NCBI RefSeq assembly: GCF_026241335.1
Contig: NZ_JAPHAV010000004.1
Location: forward strand, 1 to 64,000
Reading direction: 5' to 3'
Origin: Ochrobactrum chromiisoli
GTDB taxonomy: Bacteria; Pseudomonadota; Alphaproteobacteria; Rhizobiales; Rhizobiaceae
Length of the DNA stretch: 64,000 bases
The position numbers and the translations under genes were made by a program. Within the stretch, counting starts at the first letter, position 1. Every line of letters begins with the position of its first letter. The notes beneath the pieces are model-generated. The model searched no databases and was not told where the DNA came from. It worked only from the letters and a program-made list of their open reading frames with translations. Below, piece after piece: positions 32,936 through 62,067 of the stretch.

Positions 32936-33083
32936 CATGTTGCGGAAAAGTGGGAACCACCTTCGCGTGAAAATCAGTCCACCGGACTGATTTCTATTCC
33001 CGCTAGGATTTGAGAACGCCGTGCATCTAAACAAGAAGATAGAGCGAGCGTATTGGGTGCGGTTATGCGCGACGCGCTCCAAT
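32936..33083. repeat. extragenic repeat, long copy
   Basis: Starts GCATGTTGCGGAAAAGTGGG and contains a hairpin AATCAGTCCACCGGACTGATT. It ends with AACAAGAAGATAGAGCGAGC...CGCGACGCGCTCCA. It shares its first half with the copy at 33438 and its second half with the copy at 61440. The rest of the gap to 33265 shows nothing recognisable. Confidence 0.65.
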
Positions 33084-33437: not shown

Positions 33438-33540
33438 CCTAGAGCATGTCGCGGAAAAATGAGAACCGCCTTTGCGGGAAAATCAGTCCGCCGGGCTGAT
33501 TTCTATTCCCGCTACGATCCGAGAACGACATGCGTGAAAA
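33438..33540. repeat. extragenic repeat copy
   Basis: AGAGCATGTCGCGGAAAAATG start, hairpin AATCAGTCCGCCGGGCTGATT, and GAGAACGACATGCGTGAAAAC end. It is about 85 percent similar by eye to the first 100 bases of the repeat at 32936. Confidence 0.65.
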
Positions 33541-33596
33541 CAAGGTAGGCGTGGATGTGCCTGCCTATTTGTATAATCCCCATAACGGAGTTTGGT

Positions 33597-41485: not shown

Positions 41486-41808
41486 GAGCCTCTCCTCCCG
41501 AATTCCGTTCAGTCCCAGGCAATGATTGGAAATGCCCAAACTATCCCCAAACTGTCCATTGCAGCATATCACGCCTGATTTGAAGCTTTTATGCAAGTGC
41601 TATCCCGATAAGGGGATCAGCGTTCTTGGGGGCAGCAGGTTTGAGAAATTTATGTGTTCAATCCTAAAAATAGCAGCATTTTCAAAACATGACTTGCATC
41701 ATCATATTAATGGGAGTTAAGAAAAGGCCTCAAGTGGCATGACAGGCGGCGGGGCAGTCTGCATGATTGATCTGTCATGTACGCTCGGACCTGAACAATC
41801 AAAAGGCG
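41486..41808. other. intergenic region before the exbB-exbD-tonB operon
   Basis: A 323-base gap, AT-rich towards its middle. No convincing ORF or RNA. It contains one TGA-N9-TCA match, listed separately. Confidence 0.4.
41690..41704 (+). promoter_or_regulatory. candidate iron-responsive operator (RirA-type IRO)
   Basis: TGACTTGCATCATCA fits TGA-N9-TCA, the IRO pattern bound by RirA in Rhizobiales, located 105 bases before exbB. A short motif can occur by chance (expected about 0.08 times in this gap), so support is only the match plus the iron-transport function of the operon. Confidence 0.35.
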
Positions 41809-42768
41809 ATGAAAATGACTGGTTTCTGGCGAAAAAGCTTCATGGCTGCGGCGATGGGCATGGGGCTGCTGGCATTTGCGGGTTCTGCACTTGCACAGGA
41901 GGCACAGCAGCCTGCCAACGATAGCCCCGCTGCGACCAGCCCAGCCCCCGTTCAAGCACCGGCAGCCCAGCCCGCCATTATACCATCCGCAACCCCAGCA
42001 AGTGAACCCAATGCAGCAGAGCCACTGACCGCAACCGAGGCGCCCCCTGCTTTTGTCCTGCCGCATGACCTTTCGCCATGGGGTATGTTCATGGCCGCCG
42101 ACTGGGTTGTGAAAGGGGTGATGATCGGTCTTGCGGTTGCATCACTTTTAACCTGGACGATCTTGATCGCGAAATCGCTTGAACTGGCCGGTGCTCGCAG
42201 CCGCGCCAAACACGCATTGAAGATCATTGGTCATTCGGCGACACTTTCCGAAGCTGTTCGTACACTTGAAGGCGCGAAGGGACCGGCTTCCATTCTGGTC
42301 CGCGCTGCCGAAGATGAAGTTCGTCTTTCTGGCCCGGCATTGGCGCGTGCCGGAGGGGAAGGCCTTAAGGAGCGCGTTACCTCGCGCCTGTCGCGCATCG
42401 AAGCAAAAGCCGGACGCCGTCTTTCCAAGGGTACGGGCATTCTGGCAACCATCGGTTCGGTCGCGCCCTTTGTCGGTCTTTTTGGAACTGTGTGGGGCAT
42501 CATGAATTCGTTTATCGGCATCAGTCAGGCACAGACGACCAATCTTGCTGTTGTTGCTCCGGGCATTGCAGAAGCGTTGCTCGCCACGGCCATCGGCCTT
42601 GTTGCGGCCATTCCTGCCGTTGTTATCTATAACGTTTTCGCCCGTTCAATCACTGGTTACCGCGCGCTGCTTGCCGATGCTTCAGCGGGCGTTGAGCGTC
42701 TGGTAAGCCGGGATCTTGACTTCAGAACAGCTGGCGTGCGTGAAGGCGCGCTGCACGCAGCGGAGTAG
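41809..42768 (+). CDS. exbB: TonB-system energiser ExbB
   Basis: A 319-aa proton-channel subunit. The N-terminal signal-like segment (MGMGLLAFAGSALAQE) and a Pro/Ala-rich periplasmic stretch (residues 25-85) are the extended form common in alphaproteobacteria. Three membrane helices follow with the MotA/TolQ motif TIGSVAPFVGLFGTVWGIM and EALLATAIGLVAAIPAVV. ATG 41809 has AAAAGG upstream. First gene of exbB-exbD-tonB. Confidence 0.92.
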   Translation: MKMTGFWRKSFMAAAMGMGLLAFAGSALAQEAQQPANDSPAATSPAPVQAPAAQPAIIPSATPASEPNAAEPLTATEAPPAFVLPHDLSPWGMFMAADWVVKGVMIGLAVASLLTWTILIAKSLELAGARSRAKHALKIIGHSATLSEAVRTLEGAKGPASILVRAAEDEVRLSGPALARAGGEGLKERVTSRLSRIEAKAGRRLSKGTGILATIGSVAPFVGLFGTVWGIMNSFIGISQAQTTNLAVVAPGIAEALLATAIGLVAAIPAVVIYNVFARSITGYRALLADASAGVERLVSRDLDFRTAGVREGALHAAE

Positions 42769-42772
42769 TATC

Positions 42773-43249
42773 ATGGCTGGCAAAGTTCGAGAAGGCGATG
42801 GCGACGATCTGGAACTGAACCACGAAATCAACGTGACACCGTTCATCGATGTTATGCTGGTTCTCCTGATCATCTTCATGGTTGCGGCCCCTCTTGCGAC
42901 TGTGGACATCAACGTGGATCTGCCTGCGTCGACTGCAACACCTGCACCTCGCCCTGACAAGCCGATCTATGTGACGCTCAAGGAAGATTTATCCATCAGC
43001 GTTGGCAACGACACGGTTGCTCGCGAAGGACTGGGGCAAAAGCTTGACGGTGTGTCTGAGCGAAACAAGGATGCGCGGGTCTTTTTGCGGGCTGACAAAA
43101 TGGTTGGTTACGGTGAATTGATGCGTGTGATGAACCTGCTGCGAGAAGCTGGCTATCTCAAGATTGCGCTGGTCGGCCTTGAAACTGTGGGGGCTGCCTC
43201 TGATGGTTCAGCACCAGCCTCTGCGCCGGTTGGTCAGGGAGCACAGTAA
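42773..43249 (+). CDS. exbD: TonB-system protein ExbD
   Basis: A 158-aa protein. A short cytoplasmic N-terminus is followed by one membrane helix with the conserved Asp ([21 protein letters not shown]) and a periplasmic domain (VFLRADKMVGYGELMRVMNLLREAGYLKIALVG). It lies four bases after exbB. Confidence 0.92.
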   Translation: MAGKVREGDGDDLELNHEINVTPFIDVMLVLLIIFMVAAPLATVDINVDLPASTATPAPRPDKPIYVTLKEDLSISVGNDTVAREGLGQKLDGVSERNKDARVFLRADKMVGYGELMRVMNLLREAGYLKIALVGLETVGAASDGSAPASAPVGQGAQ

Positions 43250-44170
43250 ATGGACAGATTGCCGCCCGAACATCCCCCCCTTAAAAATGTGGCATCGACG
43301 GATAGCCATCATTATTCCTTTTGGCATGATGCAGGGCGTTGGATTGGTGCGGGGATTATCGTCTTAAGTGTACATGCTGCCGGCGCCTATGCGATCAGCA
43401 TGAATCAGGATGAGGATCAGCCGGATGGCGCGCAGGTTGCTGCCATGGTGGTTGAGTTTGCACCTGAGCCGGAAGCTCCGATGGAAGAAGTGGTGTCCGA
43501 AGCACCTCAACAGGAAACGGCTGTAGAGCCTGTCGAAGAGGTTCAACCGGAGCCCGTCGTTGAGGAGATCAAGGAGCCGGAACCAGAGCCGGAGCCTGAA
43601 GTGATCAATGAACCGGAAGAGGTAATTCCGGATATTGTTGAGGCCCCTAAGCCGGAAGTGGCTGTACCGGCTCCGGTCGAAAAGCCGAAGCCAAAGATTG
43701 AAAAGCCGAAGGAAGAGAAGCCAAAGGCCGAAAAGCCAAAGCCGGTCAAGAAAATCGAAAAGCCGAAGCCAAAGCAGGCGGAGAAGGCCAAGGAAACGCG
43801 CCAGGCAAGTGCGCCGCGCATGGACGTGGATTCGGGTGCCAAACCCGTTGCCAATCGCCGTGGCGACAACAACGCATCAGCTGGTGTCAGTTCCAATAAG
43901 TGGCAGTCGAAACTTTATTCGCACTTGTTGCGCCGCACGCGTTCATTGCAGCGTCAAGCTGGCAGAGGTGTGAAAGGGACGGCACAGGTTGCGTTTGTCG
44001 TTGATCCGTCTGGTAATATTCTCTCTGTGAAACTGGCGCGCTCATCGGGCAATCCAACTGTTGATGAACTGGCTGTTCAGGCCACGCGCAACTCATCGCC
44101 CGTGCCTGCGCCACCCGCCGCAATTGCAAAGCCGCGGATGCCAATCACGGTGCCAATTCAGTTCAAATAG
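43250..44170 (+). CDS. tonB: energy-transducing protein TonB
   Basis: A 306-aa protein with an N-terminal anchor (ALYAIS-type helix at about residues 30-50), a long Glu/Pro/Lys-rich spacer (residues 70-190, repeats of EPEPEP and KPKPK) that spans the periplasm, and a C-terminal TonB domain (SKLYSHLLRRTRSLQRQAGRGVKGTAQVAFVVDPSG). It starts directly at the exbD stop. It powers TonB-dependent receptors, e.g. siderophore and haem uptake. Confidence 0.92.
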   Translation: MDRLPPEHPPLKNVASTDSHHYSFWHDAGRWIGAGIIVLSVHAAGAYAISMNQDEDQPDGAQVAAMVVEFAPEPEAPMEEVVSEAPQQETAVEPVEEVQPEPVVEEIKEPEPEPEPEVINEPEEVIPDIVEAPKPEVAVPAPVEKPKPKIEKPKEEKPKAEKPKPVKKIEKPKPKQAEKAKETRQASAPRMDVDSGAKPVANRRGDNNASAGVSSNKWQSKLYSHLLRRTRSLQRQAGRGVKGTAQVAFVVDPSGNILSVKLARSSGNPTVDELAVQATRNSSPVPAPPAAIAKPRMPITVPIQFK

Positions 44171-51142: not shown

Positions 51143-51649
51143 TTAGCTACCGGCACCGTTGAGAACGGTAACCGCACGGCGGTTCTGCGACCAGCAAGAG
51201 TTGTTGTCGCAAACAGCCACTGGACGTTCGTTGCCGTAGGAAACGGTACGCATACGGCTGGTTGGAACGCCACGAGCCGCAAGGAAATCACGGGTTGCAG
51301 CAGCACGGCGCTGGCCGAGTGCAAGATTGTATTCGCGTGTGCCGCGCTCGTCCGCATGGCCTTCAATCGTGACCGAATACTGCGGATAACGCTGCAACCA
51401 CTGAGCCTGCTTCGACAGAGTCTGCTGTGCGTCTGCACGGATCAGCGACGAGTCGAGGTCAAAAAGAATGCGGTCACCGACGTTCACAGTGAAATCCTGA
51501 GAAGAGCCAGGCGCTGCTGCACCACCAGCAAGACCAAGATCTCCGGCATTGTTCGGAAGGTTCTTCTTGGACGCACAACCGACAACGGCGAGCGACATGA
51601 AAAGGGCAATAGCGATAGGGCTACGTGCGATCGACTGGAAACGGCGCAT
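51143..51649 (-). CDS. pal: peptidoglycan-associated lipoprotein Pal (Omp16)
   Basis: A 168-aa outer-membrane lipoprotein. Lipobox VVGC with Cys at about residue 24, then an OmpA-like peptidoglycan-binding domain (FDLDSSLIRADAQQTL; IEGHADERGTREYNLALGQRRAAATRDFLAARGV). This is the length of Brucella Omp16. The start ATG 51649 (MRRFQSIARS) is preceded by GGAG. Part of the tol-pal cluster. Confidence 0.95.
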   Translation of the reverse strand: MRRFQSIARSPIAIALFMSLAVVGCASKKNLPNNAGDLGLAGGAAAPGSSQDFTVNVGDRILFDLDSSLIRADAQQTLSKQAQWLQRYPQYSVTIEGHADERGTREYNLALGQRRAAATRDFLAARGVPTSRMRTVSYGNERPVAVCDNNSCWSQNRRAVTVLNGAGS

Positions 51650-51875
51650 GGGCCGGAGCTCCTTAAGATTTGATGTTCCTGCGTGACCAACCAATAATCA
51701 TATTTAGGTTAAGGCAGGCTCAAGAAGTATGGTTAACAATTCCTTATGGCCAAATGCAGAACGGCTTTTCAGTTGCAATTCTCCTTTTAGGCCATGATGG
51801 CTAAATGCGGCAGAAACACGACCCAACGGCCTGAATTATGGCATTTTACCGAAAAAAGCATGAAACAAACAGATA

Positions 51876-51913
51876 GAGCATTTCCAATGTTTCAATCAAA
51901 ACTGGAAATGCTC
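51876..51913. repeat. REP-like palindromic unit
   Basis: GAGCATTTCCA and TGGAAATGCTC, perfect 11-base arms around 16 bases. It is the inverted-orientation twin of the unit at 38472-38511, and lies between pal and tolB. Confidence 0.65.
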
Positions 51914-51948
51914 AACGTTTCACACCCTTAGGCTCACCATGAAGGTAA

Positions 51949-53280
51949 TTACTCAAGCAATGGCGACCAGGCTGGATCTGAACCGAAGTTCGGAGTCTGG
52001 ATCTGACGCTCATTACGGCCTGTCAGATCAATCGTGAAAAGCTTGGGACCACCAGCACCAGCGGCCTTGCGGAAGAACATCAGCACGCGGCCATTGGGAG
52101 CCCAGGTCGGGCCCTCATTATGGAAGCCGGAAGTCAGAAGGCGCTCACCCGTACCGTCGGTTTTCATGACACCAATGGAGAACTGACCCTGCGACTGCTT
52201 CGTGAAAGCGATCAGATCACCGCGCGGAGACCAGACAGGCGTCGAATAGCTGCCATCCCCTGCCGAAATGCGGCGTGGATTGGAACCGTCAGCACCCATG
52301 ACATAGAGCTGCGGACGACCGCCACGGTCCGACGAAAACACGATCTGCGAACCATCGGGCGAATAAGAAGCACTCGTATCAATTGCCTGACTGCTGGTCA
52401 GACGTGTCGTCGTGCGGTTACGCAGATCCATCGTATAAATATTGGCGCTGCCATCGTCCTGCAAAAGGCTCATGACAACCTTCTGTCCGTCCGGCGAAAA
52501 GCGTGGTGCAATCGACATGCCGGGGAAGTTGCCAACCAGTTCGCGCTGACCGGTTTCCAGCTGCAACAGATAAACGCGCGGCTGACCACCGGCAAACGAC
52601 ATATATGTCACTTCCTGACGGTTCGGCGAGAAGCGTGGCGTCAGCGCCATGTCACGACCGTCAGAGAGATAGCGCACATTCGCGCCGTCCTGATCCATAA
52701 TCGCCAGACGCTTCACACGCTTCTGCGCAGGGCCCGATTCATCCACAAAAACAATGCGTGTATCAAAATAACCCTTTTCACCCGTCAGGCGCTCATAAAT
52801 CGCATCTGCAATAATATGCGCAACACGACGCCAGTTATCGGGCGTTGTGAAGAACTGCTGACCGATCAGCTGCTGGCCGCCAAACGTATCCCAAAGGCGG
52901 AATTCAGCCTTGAGCCGTCCATCGGGCTGCTTGGTAATACGACCTGTCACCAGTGCCTGCGCATTGATCACTTTCCAGTCTTCAAAACGCGGCGATGCAT
53001 CAGGGTTGGATATCTTTTCAATGAAAGCCCCCTTGTTGATCGGCGCAAAAAGGCCCGAACGTTCAAGATCGGCTGCAATGACCGACGTGATATTCGCACC
53101 CAGCTGATCACCCGAAAGAAAATCGGTGACCGCAATTGGCAATGGCTCAACCACACCCTTGTTGATGTTGATTTCCACCACCGCACGCGCAGGCATGGTG
53201 GCCACCAGGCTCGCAGCAATCATACAGGCGAAAGCCGAAAAAACGATCCGGATCTTTTTGTTCATGATGCCGATTTTCAT
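51949..53280 (-). CDS. tolB: Tol-Pal system beta-propeller protein TolB
   Basis: A 443-aa periplasmic protein. Signal peptide ([24 protein letters not shown]), TolB N-terminal domain (residues 30-160), then six WD40-like beta-propeller repeats with recurring ...[35 protein letters not shown] motifs. It binds Pal and TolA. Start ATG 53280 follows AGAGG. Confidence 0.95.
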
Positions 53281-53348
53281 GTCTTTAGGGACCTCTTTTG
53301 TCCTTTGGCCTCGTTAAGGCAATCGATAGGAGTGACCAGCAAGGCTGA

Positions 53349-54419
53349 TCAGAACATTTCACTCGGGTCGAAGTTGACGATCACTTCCGACCATGAATCA
53401 TATTTGTCTGCTGGCAGGTTATAAGGTGCACAACGGGCCACAGCGCGTTTCGCACTTTCCGCTGCTGCACGACCAACACCGTCAGTGCCACCACCAGATG
53501 TCACTTCAGGAACACCCTGAATAGAACCATCCTGATTGAGATGCATCTTCACCGTGACAATCAGTCCTGGCGCGTCTGCCACACCGGCAGGCACATTCCA
53601 GCACTTGGAAATGGCACCACGAAGCGCATCCATTTCATTCTGGCTCAATTTTGAGCCACCCGTATTCTTCTTGCCGCCAAGCGATGCCTGATCGGTCGAA
53701 CGCTTTGCACCGCCGCCTGATGTCTTCTGCTTGTTGAGAAGCGCTGCCACTTCATCAGCAATCGCATCATTTTTCGATTGCGACGTCTGCGAGGCCGACT
53801 GCGTCGGCTTCTTTTCTTCCACAGGCTTGCGATCCGGCGTTTTTGCCGTCTGCGCCTGCGGCGGTTTTGGCTTTGCCTGTGGCGCCGGCACATTATCCGG
53901 CAATTTCGGTGCCGTCTGGTCAGGAGCTTCCGCCTGTTTTTCGATCGCTTCTGCGACCGGATCAGGCTTCACGTCCTGTTTTGCTTCAGGCTTGGTTTGC
54001 ACTTCCGTCGCAGGAACCGGTGTCGGCTTTTCCTGCGGCGTTGGTTCGGGCTTGGGATCAGGCTTCGGCTCCGGCTTTTTCACCGGCTCCGGCTGTGCCT
54101 TTGGTTCCTCAGCCGCTTCAATTGGCTTGGCCTTGTTGTCTGGTTTCGGCGGCGTCTGAAGATCGACTTCATTGTCACCGACATTCTGGGCATCCGGTAC
54201 GGTGTTCGGCTTTTTGGTCGGAACGGGCGCCGACTTTTCCTTCATGGGCGCAGTTTTATCGCCCTGCTGGATTTGCGTGATCGATTCGATCGGCACGATG
54301 TCGACCGGAAATGATTCCGAATCCTGCACGTCGAAAGGCTTCGGCGAGGAAAACGAAACCACAACCAGCGCAAGCGCAACGGCATGGAGTGCAACAGAAG
54401 ATATCAGGCCAGCCTTCAT
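53349..54419 (-). CDS. tolA: Tol-Pal system protein TolA
   Basis: A 356-aa protein. N-terminal membrane helix (ISSVALHAVALALVVVSFS), a long Pro/Lys/Glu/Gln-rich periplasmic spacer (residues 60-240), and a C-terminal domain with one disulfide-type Cys pair (AISKCWNVPAG, VARCAPYNLPADKY). Typical of alphaproteobacterial TolA. It spans the envelope with TolQ and TolR. Confidence 0.92.
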   Translation of the reverse strand: MKAGLISSVALHAVALALVVVSFSSPKPFDVQDSESFPVDIVPIESITQIQQGDKTAPMKEKSAPVPTKKPNTVPDAQNVGDNEVDLQTPPKPDNKAKPIEAAEEPKAQPEPVKKPEPKPDPKPEPTPQEKPTPVPATEVQTKPEAKQDVKPDPVAEAIEKQAEAPDQTAPKLPDNVPAPQAKPKPPQAQTAKTPDRKPVEEKKPTQSASQTSQSKNDAIADEVAALLNKQKTSGGGAKRSTDQASLGGKKNTGGSKLSQNEMDALRGAISKCWNVPAGVADAPGLIVTVKMHLNQDGSIQGVPEVTSGGGTDGVGRAAAESAKRAVARCAPYNLPADKYDSWSEVIVNFDPSEMF

Positions 54420-54426
54420 GATGCCG

Positions 54427-54879
54427 TCAGCTATCCTGCTCCTGGAGTGTCACAAGGCCGATATTCTTGAAACCGGCGGCGGAGATACGAGCCATAACCT
54501 TCATGACAGTGCCATAATCGGCAGCCTTGTCACCGCGCACAAAAATGCGCTCTTCATACCCGGTTTTGGCAATCGCCTGAAGCTTGGGAACCACTTCATC
54601 AATCGGAATTTCAGTTTCCTGAATAAAGATCCGACCTTCGTTGTTGACCGAAACAGTGATTGGCTGCGTATCGGCATTCATGGCCTTGGCCTGCGTATCG
54701 GGCAGATCAATCGGCACACCAACCGTCAGAAGCGGTGCGGAAACCATGAAAATGATAAGCAGCACCAGCATCACGTCCACGAATGGCGTAACGTTGATCT
54801 CGCTCATTAATGCCTTCTTGCGGCCACGCCTGCGGCGACCACCCGATTGCATTCCCTGATTTCCAACTGACATGCCCAT
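54427..54879 (-). CDS. tolR: Tol-Pal system protein TolR
   Basis: A 150-aa ExbD/TolR protein. Membrane helix with the conserved Asp in [22 protein letters not shown] and a periplasmic domain with [18 protein letters not shown]. It lies seven bases upstream of tolA. Confidence 0.95.
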
Positions 54880-54925
54880 TTCAATATTCCCGAAGGCTCG
54901 ATTTAGCTTTGATGCTGGAACACGC

Positions 54926-55636
54926 TTAGTTGCGTGGCGTCAGCTTCTCATCAATTTGGCGCGACAGTATGGCGGAGAACTCGTCTGCAAAACCTTCAAG
55001 GCGTCCGTTGATTTTGCCTGCATCACCCGAGAGCTTGTTATAGGCAATAACCGCAGGGATAGCTGCGAGCAAACCAATGGCCGTTGCAAGCAGCGCTTCC
55101 GCAATACCGGGAGCAACAACCGCGAGGCTGGTATTTTTCGAGGCCGCAATCGCCTGAAACGACGTCATAATACCGACAACAGTACCAAACAGCCCCACAA
55201 ACGGCGCGGCTGAACCGGTCGTAGCCAGAAAGCCGAGACGCGATTCAAGTTTTTCACCTTCGCGGGCAAGCGCCACATCCATTGCCTTGTCGATACGCAT
55301 TTGAAGCGCTATCGGCGAGCGCGCGCCTTTTTCGAACGATTTCTTCCATTCGCGCATGGCAGCAATAAAGATCGACGCCATTCCCGTGGTGCGGCGCTCA
55401 TTAAGAGTGCGATAAAGCTCCTCAAGCGATTGCCCCGACCAGAAAGCCTGTTCAAAGCGATCGATGGCGCGACGTGCGCGGCCATAGGACACGATCTTGT
55501 CCACGATGATCGCCCACGTCCAGACCGAAGCGAGAATGAGACCAAGCATAACCAGCTTGACCACCCAGCCCGCATGCATAAACAGGCCCCAGAGGGTAAT
55601 ATCGGCGGCTGGGGCCGCAAGCGCAATATTTTCCAT
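54926..55636 (-). CDS. tolQ: Tol-Pal system protein TolQ
   Basis: A 236-aa MotA/ExbB-type proton-channel protein with three helices (KLVMLGLILASVWTWAIIV; TTGSAAPFVGLFGTVVGIM; EALLATAIGLLAAIPAVIAYN). First gene of tolQRAB on this strand. The gap 55637-55924 upstream contains nothing recognisable. Confidence 0.95.
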   Translation of the reverse strand: MENIALAAPAADITLWGLFMHAGWVVKLVMLGLILASVWTWAIIVDKIVSYGRARRAIDRFEQAFWSGQSLEELYRTLNERRTTGMASIFIAAMREWKKSFEKGARSPIALQMRIDKAMDVALAREGEKLESRLGFLATTGSAAPFVGLFGTVVGIMTSFQAIAASKNTSLAVVAPGIAEALLATAIGLLAAIPAVIAYNKLSGDAGKINGRLEGFADEFSAILSRQIDEKLTPRN

Positions 55637-58703: not shown

Positions 58704-58799
58704 GACAGCACAAAAGTGAACAAAAGAGAAACATACGCAAGCCAACAGGCCACCTCTCATATCCAAAAAAAATGGACACACTATATTTTGACCAATTTA

Positions 58800-58829
58800 T
58801 TGGGCATTACAAATTTAGATTAATATTAT
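58800..58829 (+). promoter_or_regulatory. candidate promoter of the lasso-peptide operon
   Basis: TTGGGC (58800-58805), 18 bases, TATTAT (58824-58829), inside very AT-rich DNA 53 bases before the precursor start. An alternative -35 (TTGACC, 58788) has no well-spaced partner. Weak support. Confidence 0.3.
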
Positions 58830-58881
58830 AAATTACTTATGCAACTTATCTTTGAAGCTAATAAATATTAGGAGAATAATT

Positions 58882-59028
58882 ATGAATTTCTCTAAATTTT
58901 TTAGATTTATATCGGCAAAACAACATCAAGACTCTGTTGATTATATAGATGCAAAAAAAGCAACAAAAGGCGGCGGTGGATTTAGGTCTGAATCACCTCA
59001 GCTTTGGGATGATGGATTGAGTCAGTGA
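58882..59028 (+). CDS. lasso peptide precursor (A gene)
   Basis: A 48-aa precursor. It has an optimal ribosome site (AGGAGAATAATT) and precedes the maturation genes by 18 bases. Leader: 29 residues (MNFSKFFRFISAK...YIDAKKATK). Thr28 is at position -2 from the predicted cleavage, the conserved leader residue of lasso precursors. Core: GGGGFRSESPQLWDDGLSQ. A Gly1-Glu8 isopeptide bond would give an eight-residue ring (the only acidic residue at position 7, 8 or 9 is Glu8), with an 11-residue tail. Hand-summed monoisotopic mass is about 1973.9 Da for the lasso form (1991.9 linear). There is no cysteine, so class II. The leader lacks an obvious YxxP motif. Confidence 0.85.
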   Translation: MNFSKFFRFISAKQHQDSVDYIDAKKATKGGGGFRSESPQLWDDGLSQ

Positions 59029-59046
59029 ATGAATGATTAGGCAGAC

Positions 59047-60732
59047 ATGAGTGAGAATTCATGTCTGTCGAATTTTCAAGATAAATCTGGTGATGCGGTG
59101 CTCTCTATTTCAAACGACGATGCATTCGTATCGTCTGGTTTTTTTAAATATTTAAAGCATAAAGATTCTTCATCCTCTTGTGAAGAAAATCTATTCCTTT
59201 ATTCTTTCTCCCCCATATTAAATGAAATGGTTCTTTATGGGCACCGCGGAGAATTCCACATCAAGCCAACCGGAGGAGAAGTTAATGTCGAGAGACCACT
59301 CTGGTGCGCGCATGATATATTCTTTTTCTATAATAAAAATCAGTGGCTAATCTCGGATGATATGACCGCGATGTCAGCTATGCAGGCCAAGCTCAAATCG
59401 AATCCTGGCTTCATCGCGAACTATCTATCATCAACTGAGTTTGCCACAGATCAAACGCCCTTTACCGGAATAGGCTGTGTTATGCCCGGAACCACAGCCA
59501 TTCTTCATTCAAACGGGCAAATAACGTATAAACTCATCTGCGGTGAGACGTCTCAACTTGATAGCAATGAAATCCCTGAAACTCTCATTGAGCACATCAA
59601 CAGCGCTGGCGGGCCAAACAGACCGTTCATTCTGGAACTGTCAGGAGGTCTTGATTCTTCAGGTGTTTTCTACGCTGCCCTGACACAGCCACGAACGGCT
59701 GAACAACTATATCCGGTTACCTATTACGACCCCAATATATCGAATTCTTCCGATGTGGTTGCCGCTCAGGCGCTTTGCGGCAAGCATGGCGTTAATCTTC
59801 ACCTGATACCAATCCGTTCGGACGGCATATTCACCGATCTGTTCACCGGACCTGCTTACAAACCAAAGCGCCCATCTCTATGGCTGCTTCATTCGGCTTC
59901 GCAACGAGACCTGATCGATTATGCTCAGTCTTTGCCGACTGACTGCATGATTTTAAACGGGCACGGTGGCGACCACATATTTCTGGCAAATCCTGTGGCA
60001 AGTGCCGTCATTGATCATCTTTGGAAGAAACACCCCAATATTACCAAAGCTTTTGAAACGGCGCGCAAACTTACCGTTTTGAACCAAAAATCATGGTTGC
60101 GGCTTGCTCGTGAGAGCTTATCAGACTGCCAGGCACGGCTGTATTTCCATATCTACGGCGCGGCCAATATTGGTTCCTCTCAAGATAAAAAAGCAATATT
60201 CAATAGCGAACTGTATAGAATTGCGTTTAATGAGCAAAAACGCGTTAACAGCATTTTCCAAAATCAATCCGTATCGAGTGATTGGATACGGCATCGCCGA
60301 TCACTCATGGCAGCGGTCCATCATGGCGCGGCAGACCGTCTAACAGACATCCGATACCAGACTGTCTATCCATACCTTAATGAAACGCTGATCCGTTGGG
60401 CGGAAAACAGGTCGGACAGCTCAACCTTTTCTTATGAACTCAATAGATTGCCGCAAAGAGAAAGCTTCCACCGTCGTTTCGGCGCCACGAGTTTCATGCG
60501 TAAGGGAAAAGGAGATATCAGCGGTATTGTCCAGCGTATGATCCGTGCGGAAAGTGAACACATCGTTGAGTTGATACTCAATGGCGAAGCAGCCAAATGT
60601 GGCTTTATCAATAAAGCGAATGTGCTTGACGATATTCGCAGATGCCAATTGGGCGGCGAATTCATTTCGCCGTCAACGCTGCTGCTTTTGTCGCTCGAAC
60701 TTTATTACAAATGCTGGAAAAGCGAAATGTAA
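59047..60732 (+). CDS. lasso peptide macrolactam synthetase (C protein, asparagine synthetase-like)
   Basis: A 561-aa ATP-dependent cyclase that adenylates the Glu8 side chain and joins it to Gly1. The N-terminal half (residues 1-170) resembles the glutaminase-like domain of asparagine synthetase B but lacks an N-terminal Cys2, as lasso cyclases do. The synthetase domain starts at about residue 190 with the PP-loop ELSGGLDSSGVFYAAL (SGGLDSS at 199-205), followed by LNGHGGDHIF and the HRR...R-rich C-terminal region. Its stop overlaps the next gene by one base (TAATG). GC is lower than in the flanking ruv genes. The family is clear from the motif and the gene order; the exact product is inference. 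Confidence 0.87.
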   Translation: MSENSCLSNFQDKSGDAVLSISNDDAFVSSGFFKYLKHKDSSSSCEENLFLYSFSPILNEMVLYGHRGEFHIKPTGGEVNVERPLWCAHDIFFFYNKNQWLISDDMTAMSAMQAKLKSNPGFIANYLSSTEFATDQTPFTGIGCVMPGTTAILHSNGQITYKLICGETSQLDSNEIPETLIEHINSAGGPNRPFILELSGGLDSSGVFYAALTQPRTAEQLYPVTYYDPNISNSSDVVAAQALCGKHGVNLHLIPIRSDGIFTDLFTGPAYKPKRPSLWLLHSASQRDLIDYAQSLPTDCMILNGHGGDHIFLANPVASAVIDHLWKKHPNITKAFETARKLTVLNQKSWLRLARESLSDCQARLYFHIYGAANIGSSQDKKAIFNSELYRIAFNEQKRVNSIFQNQSVSSDWIRHRRSLMAAVHHGAADRLTDIRYQTVYPYLNETLIRWAENRSDSSTFSYELNRLPQRESFHRRFGATSFMRKGKGDISGIVQRMIRAESEHIVELILNGEAAKCGFINKANVLDDIRRCQLGGEFISPSTLLLLSLELYYKCWKSEM

Positions 60733-61397
60733 TGGGCATCACATTCAGGGATTATTACCATCCATGCTTCACAAGAGACGGCGGTGTCATTTTTGACAGT
60801 AAGAATGACCAATATATACTGCTCTCGGATGAGGAAACGACAATCATTCAGGCTGCGCTATTGAATCCTGAATTCAATGATGCATTGTCACCCAAACTTG
60901 AAACACTGATTGCGCCGTCAGTGACCGGTGAAAGAGAGCCTGTCGCCTCTCAGATAGCCAGAGGCATGAATGATTATTCATGGCGCTACCTGCCAGAAAA
61001 CCCAACCGCCTATGTCTCGGGACGCGCCAAACCTCGTTTGATTCTATGGGTTTATTTGATCCAGATCCTGATAAAGCGACGCGGAATTGTTGGAGCGGTA
61101 AATTTTATCACGCGCCACAGGTGGTTGTTCCGAAAATGGCTTCCTATTCTGGATATAAACGCGTTTTCCGACGACATAATGGTGGCGTCTCGACTTTCGC
61201 CATTCCGCTTTGAATGTCTTGAATTTGCAATCGCAGTGCGATGCTATGCACTGGTGCGGTCTATAGCAAATACCCGATTGTATCTTGGCATACAGCGTTT
61301 CCCGTTCGTCGCACATGCCTGGGTTGAGCATAACGAAAAACCAATCGGCGACGATCAAAACCTTCGCAATCGCGCCGCTGTCATTTTCCAGATTTAG
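60732..61397 (+). CDS. lasso peptide leader peptidase with RRE domain (B protein)
   Basis: A 221-aa fusion. Residues 1-85 form a PqqD-like leader-recognition domain (FTRDGGVIFDSKNDQYILLSDEE). The C-terminal transglutaminase-like cysteine protease has Cys162 in FECLEFA, His195 in PFVAHAWVE, and Asp207/Asp208 in IGDD, the Cys-His-Asp triad of lasso B proteins. The 33-residue Cys-His spacing is normal for the class. It removes the 29-residue leader after Lys29. ATG 60732 shares a base with the C stop, so translation is coupled. The longer frame to 60642 would overlap C and is rejected. Confidence 0.87.
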   Translation: MGITFRDYYHPCFTRDGGVIFDSKNDQYILLSDEETTIIQAALLNPEFNDALSPKLETLIAPSVTGEREPVASQIARGMNDYSWRYLPENPTAYVSGRAKPRLILWVYLIQILIKRRGIVGAVNFITRHRWLFRKWLPILDINAFSDDIMVASRLSPFRFECLEFAIAVRCYALVRSIANTRLYLGIQRFPFVAHAWVEHNEKPIGDDQNLRNRAAVIFQI

Positions 61398-61398
61398 A

Positions 61399-61426
61399 GA
61401 GACCTTTGTGCGCCCAACACGGTCTC
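61399..61426 (+). terminator. possible hairpin after the lasso operon
   Basis: GAGACC (61399) and GGTCTC (61421) pair around 16 bases, without a T-run. Weak, and merges into the extragenic repeat. Confidence 0.3.
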
Positions 61427-61435
61427 GGCGCTCTC

Positions 61436-61545
61436 AAGTACGACGCGGAAAGGCGGGTTCCCGCTACGTTTCAAGAACGACATGCGTGAGAACAAGAAGA
61501 TAGAGCGAGCCTATTGGGCACGATTAAGCGCGGCACGCTCTAAGA
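61436..61545. repeat. extragenic repeat copy
   Basis: Contains GAACGACATGCGTGAGAACAAG and AGATAGAGCGAGCCTATTGG...CGGCACGCTCTA, matching the second half of the copy at 32936 and part of the one at 33438. It marks the right edge of the lasso insertion. Confidence 0.6.
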
Positions 61546-62067
61546 TGCGCCGAAAGCCGTCTTCAGCAAAACGATTTGATCCGATACGGGATTGCCATGG
61601 GGTGCGCTTTGCAATGAAACAACTTCACCGTAAACATTGCGGTCCATGCGGCGCACACGCGCCTGAAGGCGCATTGAGCGTTCGATGAGTTCAATGAAGG
61701 CGAACGGCAATTCGTTCCAGCCCGGCGCAATATCACCGGCAGACGGCGTATCAAGACGCACCTTTGCCTTTTCGGCTTCGACCTGTTTGCGGGACATTTC
61801 GCCATTGCGCGCGGCACGCTGCAACAAGAGCCACGAAGCCACCTGCATGAGCCGTGTGGTCAGGCGCATCGATTCGGCTGCATAAAGGGTTGCAGCAACG
61901 CGCGAAAGACTGCGCGCTTCTTCACGGCCCTCCCCGTCGAGATAGCTCGCGGCTTCCTCAACCATATCCATGCCTTCACTGTAAATCGGCTTAAAGGAAT
62001 CCGAGAAAACCATGCGCTCGGCGAGGCTGATCATATTACCCGGCATCTGTCCCTGTTCGCTAATCAC
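61540..62067 (-). CDS. rcdA: RcdA-like protease adaptor (DUF1465)
   Basis: A 175-aa helical protein. MDMVEEAASYLDGEGREEARSLSR, LYAAESMRLTTRLMQVASWLLLQRA and GEMSRKQVEAEKAKVRL match the DUF1465 family, whose Caulobacter member RcdA helps deliver CtrA to ClpXP. Such proteins control the cell cycle in Rhizobiales. Start GTG 62067 follows AAGGTGG. It lies directly beyond the lasso locus on the opposite strand; the family assignment is from memory of the sequence pattern. Confidence 0.8.
   Translation of the reverse strand: MISEQGQMPGNMISLAERMVFSDSFKPIYSEGMDMVEEAASYLDGEGREEARSLSRVAATLYAAESMRLTTRLMQVASWLLLQRAARNGEMSRKQVEAEKAKVRLDTPSAGDIAPGWNELPFAFIELIERSMRLQARVRRMDRNVYGEVVSLQSAPHGNPVSDQIVLLKTAFGAS

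Follow-up and report, generated by a model that had tools for sequence, protein, structure and literature searches.

The window analysed here, a stretch of 64,000 nucleotides of Ochrobactrum chromiisoli (assembly GCF_026241335.1, contig NZ_JAPHAV010000004.1, positions 1 to 64,000, forward strand), carries at 58882-61397 three co-directional genes, which make up a genuine, rare and probably functional lasso peptide locus. The three products are a precursor (A), a cyclase (C) and a leader peptidase (B), which carries a predicted recognition element (RRE) as a fused domain. They very likely yield a lasso peptide of 19 residues, predicted to be threaded, and the genes were likely acquired laterally as a compact cassette. 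The assignment of the core and the ring, the threading, the product and the role of the peptide are predictions drawn from the sequence. Lasso systems are already known as a kind, and the locus adds a new and rare instance. It stands out chiefly by having no gene for export or for breakdown next to the predicted lasso genes. Sequence and open reading frames (ORFs) place the genes in the order A-C-B, A and C being 18 bases apart, and C and B overlapping in the string TAATG, where the start of B falls within the stop of C. An earlier note on this DNA had described a lasso locus here, and its coordinates, ORFs, gene order and AGGAGAA ribosome-binding site were all found again in the sequence. The lasso interpretation is supported for B and C by profiles, alignments, predicted structures and comparison with known clusters, and for A by the expected anatomy of the precursor.

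The precursor gene and the predicted peptide

Gene A (58882-59028, + strand), an ORF starting with ATG, encodes 48 residues, and is preceded by the site AGGAGAA (58870-58876, + strand), read directly in the sequence. The predicted leader, residues 1-29 (58882-58968, + strand), ends in Thr28-Lys29, and is followed by the predicted core GGGGFRSESPQLWDDGLSQ (58969-59025, + strand), assigned from translation and mass. According to passages of PMC7549694, the penultimate residue of lasso leaders is Thr, and Gly opens 62% of the cores; the same passages report that leader cleavage is guided by the RRE, and that an Asp or Glu is adenylated for ring closure. In the translation, Thr28 is at position -2, Gly30 is a small first residue of the core, and Glu37 is residue 8 of the core, within the span of 7-9 expected for an Asp or Glu there, as the earlier note had claimed. 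A ring joining Gly1 to Glu8, and a loop and tail of 11 residues, are predicted. The cyclised core would have a mass of 1973.887 Da, with [M+2H]2+ at 987.951 (computed values), which agrees with the 1973.9 Da and 987.95 given earlier.

How distinctive this arrangement is was gauged with a Thr/Gly/acid motif, defined for the purpose of this work. The motif occurred in 369 of 20,000 (1.8%) shuffled versions of the precursor, and in 3 of the 580 stop-defined readings of 35-70 residues in the window, among which gene A alone also has a ribosome-binding site. Upstream of seven other B genes, a scan with a looser pattern found a motif-bearing small ORF in six cases, locus L044 having none. Reading small ORFs beside a B2 gene thus yields precursor candidates in unannotated clusters. 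Promoter and terminator scans at the locus gave scores below shuffle expectation, and were left unused.

A collection of about 5.8 billion proteins was searched by a procedure that reaches just relatives sharing short exact words. It contains a 48-residue precursor, P0001, with 5 member sequences, which is 96% identical to the product of gene A, and differs by Asn2Thr in the leader, and by Leu in place of Pro at position 10 of the core, just beyond the predicted ring. Gene A thus recurs, and gene callers find such a gene in some genomes. The idea that the precursor had been missed by length-based gene calling finds no support, as the near-identical protein is already in the collection. A passage of PMC12670498 states that automated mining may overlook lasso precursor genes, and by that passage the concern of the earlier reader is fair in general.

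The cyclase and the peptidase

Gene C (59047-60732, + strand) encodes an asparagine-synthetase-type lasso cyclase of 561 residues, identified by profile, alignment and conserved residues. The protein scores 37.9 bits against PF00733 (cut-off 21), and aligns with the klebsidin cyclase over 403 columns (hhalign E 4.2e-17). It carries SGGLDSS at residues 199-205, as claimed in the earlier note, and NGHGGDH at 304-310; residues S199, G200, G201, D203, S204, G305, D309 and H310 are invariant in 11 of 11 aligned rows. The product of C is hence an asparagine-synthetase-like cyclase with the ATP-binding SGGxDS signature. Its top NCBIfam match is a macrolactam-cyclase model, under the cut-off. The structure model is poor (mean predicted local distance difference test score, pLDDT, 52.5) and matches asparagine-synthetase-type enzymes, which makes for a weak check of the fold.

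Gene B (60732-61397, + strand) encodes a leader peptidase of 221 residues, and passes both the lasso-specific model NF033537 lasso_biosyn_B2 (52.1 bits, cut-off 33) and PF13471 (48.2 bits, cut-off 26). B aligns with klebsidin B over 94 columns (hhalign E 4.4e-10). Residues 141-221 (61152-61394, + strand) form a transglutaminase-like cysteine-protease domain, recognised by profile, alignment and fold match. All 13 B proteins in the alignment, that of the window among them, share Cys162, His195 and Asp207. Asp208, which had been listed as an alternative catalytic residue, is not conserved. Residues 1-66 (60732-60929, + strand) are the predicted RRE, a leader-binding domain fused to the peptidase. 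The best fold matches of this N-terminal domain are complexes of lasso B1 proteins with leaders, or leader-binding domains. Among the 50 fold matches listed, 13 align solely to residues 1-68 of B and, going by title or by what is known of them, are enzymes or domains binding the leaders of ribosomally synthesised and post-translationally modified peptides. Menin, a microtubule protein and similar rows of the fold lists were discarded as common-fold matches.

Maturation could proceed as follows. The leader of the precursor would dock on the RRE of B, and Cys162, His195 and Asp207 would cleave after Lys29, before Gly30. C would adenylate Glu8 at the expense of ATP, and join Gly1 to Glu8, to form an eight-residue ring around the tail, in which Trp13 may act as a plug keeping the tail threaded. 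Release would rely on a core exporter or on lysis, given that the cluster has no transporter. No isopeptidase was found, so recycling along the AtxE2 route would be improbable. The peptide would most likely serve in signalling or in competing with close relatives, though this is a guess.

Search for a transporter and an isopeptidase

The locus had been called complete. This is correct as far as maturation is concerned, A, C and B being the minimal set, but the searches found no transporter in the cluster and no isopeptidase. ORFs of at least 130 residues were listed on both sides of the inserted stretch that holds the three genes, and those within 10 kb were scanned with Pfam. No ORF for a transporter (D) occurs within the insertion, which is flanked by ruvC and rcdA. 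The scan detected one ABC (ATP-binding cassette) exporter, C45:69697-71517, 8.3 kb downstream. The exporter gene is present in 34 of 35 genomes of the genus, and in 31 of the 31 good ones; it is thus a core gene, which did not arrive with the insertion. An AtxE2-type isopeptidase was sought with NF033523 (cut-off 400) over the whole genome of O. chromiisoli (99.98% complete), and the sole match, at 27.9 bits, falls in the tolB gene.

An ABC transporter gene follows C or B in loci L009, L040, L041 and L043 (by Pfam), and in the klebsidin record. In L042 and L044, short contigs read for ORFs with no profile scan, no ABC-like ORF was seen after C. A passage of PMC7549694 states that most proteobacterial clusters lacking a transporter have an isopeptidase, and by this account the present locus is an exception, yet not a lone one. 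A lasso cluster devoid of both genes raises questions about the exit route and the purpose of the peptide.

Elsewhere in the window, an ExbB-ExbD-TonB gene set is found at 41767-44167, and a tol-pal cluster, including TolB, an OmpA-type protein, and TolR- and TolQ-type domains, at 51146-55636.

Insertion between ruvC and rcdA

The three genes reside in an inserted stretch, or island, of about 2.8 kb (58740-61540), delimited by homology break points and GC content, which lies between the start of ruvC, on the left, and the stop of rcdA (DUF1465), on the right. Both neighbours are on the strand opposite to A-C-B. The GC content is 0.453 in the island, versus 0.557 in ruvC and 0.561 in rcdA. The gene rcdA was found in 35 of 35 genomes of the genus, and the corresponding loci could be obtained for 29 of the 34 other genomes. 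Each of these 29 loci ceases to be homologous to the window at 58733-58739, and becomes so again at 61530-61550. The gap between ruvC and rcdA measures 70-240 bp in 28 loci and 1074 bp in L025, versus 2867 bp here. No lasso B gene was detected in the 34 other genomes, 30 of which have a completeness of 90% or more and a contamination of 5% or less, by searching with the B protein of the window and with the general lasso B2 model. The comparison with close relatives that the earlier note had called for thus found no such B gene in the 34 genomes, and a gap of only 70-240 bp at the site in 28 of the 29 loci. The 1074-bp gap of L025 corresponds to a different insertion at the same intergenic site, which may be a hot spot.

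A dispersed repeat lies at the right edge of the island, with its end at the stop of rcdA (61458-61543), and is found at 20 further places in the genome, 19 of which fall within the 61458-61543 part of the query. In view of the empty sites, the size of the gap, the GC content and the repeat at the edge, A, C and B were likely gained as one cassette. One lineage of the genus likely received this compact unit by lateral transfer, the intergenic site that took it up being variable.

The repeat is about 85 bp long. It also occurs in the window at 32997-33082 and 33506-33544, has 21 matches altogether in the genome, and is matched in 15 further members of the genus. For one copy, the predicted folding is slightly superior to that of its shuffles (z -1.88).

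Relatives and distribution

The search of the protein collection returned 5 cyclase clusters above 40% identity, including P0002, which is 98% identical to the product of gene C, and 6 B proteins, the one of the window included. B and C of the window each fall into one clade with relatives from the collection, with 100% bootstrap in both trees. Long branches make it uncertain where the rows from Rhizobium, Klebsiella, Asticcacaulis and L044 belong, and a shared origin of the A-C-B order is accordingly not claimed.

Plasmid searches gave 45 and 42 records, every one below 60% identity, and no related locus was found by scanning a bacterial genome collection and viral contigs. Searches at the family and order level found only the genome under study (1 of 297, 1 of 397 and 1 of 394). 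At the class level, 4 further genomes among 385 carry distant B genes; the family, order and class draws overlap, and these counts are not additive. An eight-letter piece of the core had no match in the literature. Searches for lasso peptides together with Ochrobactrum, Rhizobiales or Brucella, and wider ones, found no such locus by title or start of the abstract. The locus represents a sequence-distinct and seldom sequenced lasso lineage, associated with a defined insertion for which empty sites exist in sister species.

Two class members with small genomes host unannotated lasso clusters. One (L040, 5453-6357) has three motif-bearing precursor candidates; the other (L042, 1147-1782 and 7637-7876) has four candidates at one B gene and one at a second.

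Alternative explanations

The fate of the peptide after maturation can be viewed in different ways. It is conceivable, though doubtful, that the cyclised peptide is made, and either acts intracellularly or leaves the cell via an exporter whose gene is located at another place in the genome. The core ABC exporter 8.3 kb downstream could serve this purpose, but its occurrence in nearly all genomes of the genus indicates that it is not borne by the island, and nothing ties it to the island. Equally tentative is the notion that the locus is the founding example of an unrecognised minimal A-C-B lineage, a cassette shorter than 3 kb with no gene for an exporter, immunity or an isopeptidase, whose product, rich in Gly and with an acidic tail, would borrow a core exporter, or have a new, non-antibiotic role. 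Less likely, the locus could be the relict of a full lasso system, stripped of its transporter or isopeptidase, and no longer productive. The lack of both genes at the locus would fit, as would the A-C-B-D order of the R. leguminosarum counterpart, and the AT-rich upstream DNA, in which no convincing promoter was found. Decay is at odds, however, with three open frames and intact catalytic residues, and with the recurrence of near-identical A and C proteins in the protein collection.

It is improbable that the asparagine-synthetase and transglutaminase pair gives rise to an unthreaded macrolactam, or some other modified peptide. Threading cannot be revealed by sequence, and the macrolactam-cyclase model tops the NCBIfam matches of C; yet B passes the lasso-specific model, and both enzymes align with their klebsidin counterparts. 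Hardly credible is the view that the 48-codon ORF arose by chance, and that the real precursor lies elsewhere. The motif alone does turn up in a few small readings of the window and in some shuffles, but gene A is located directly upstream of C, has its own AGGAGAA site, and has a near-identical relative in the protein collection. A locus dedicated to a threaded lasso peptide remains the preferred reading.

Comparison with known systems

Microcin J25 has a ring closed at Glu8 and a Thr-Lys/Gly-Gly junction, as predicted here, and a tail which differs in sequence from that of the predicted core. Its genes are arranged as A-B-C-D, as opposed to A-C-B in O. chromiisoli. RNA polymerase is given as the target of microcin J25 in a passage of PMC13352647. 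The klebsidin cluster (L047, K. pneumoniae plasmid NZ_LR890357.1) resembles the present locus in its precursor, which has Thr at -2 and opens the core with Gly (+1), in its B2 protein, and in its asparagine-synthetase-type C protein, but follows the A-B-C-D order, including an ABC transporter gene, and has a core that by eye is unrelated.

The cluster of Asticcacaulis plasmid pASDW145_2 (L046), which we take to be of the astexin type, is alphaproteobacterial as well, and has a B2 protein and an asparagine-synthase-type C protein. A small 'hypothetical protein', a candidate precursor, shows GGGP after Thr-Lys, a further likeness. In this cluster, however, genes are in the order A-B-C, and next to them come those for an Atxe2-type isopeptidase and for a TonB-dependent receptor, neither of which adjoins the locus of O. 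chromiisoli.

The A-C-B order is present as the earlier note had claimed, but is not unique. On plasmid pRlBT01d of R. leguminosarum (L009), A, C and B follow each other in the same way, a motif-bearing precursor candidate lying upstream. There, an ABC transporter gene comes after B, and the B and C proteins are 25.7% and 24.4% identical to those of the window. This A-C-B-D cluster (6051-10495 of L009) is unannotated, and the plasmid is typed as conjugative. Much closer are two proteins of Ochrobactrum sp. GPK 3: a 'Lasso peptide biosynthesis B2 protein' (P0020), 46% identical to B, and a cyclase (P0006), 43% identical to C, each sharing with its counterpart in the window a clade with 100% bootstrap.
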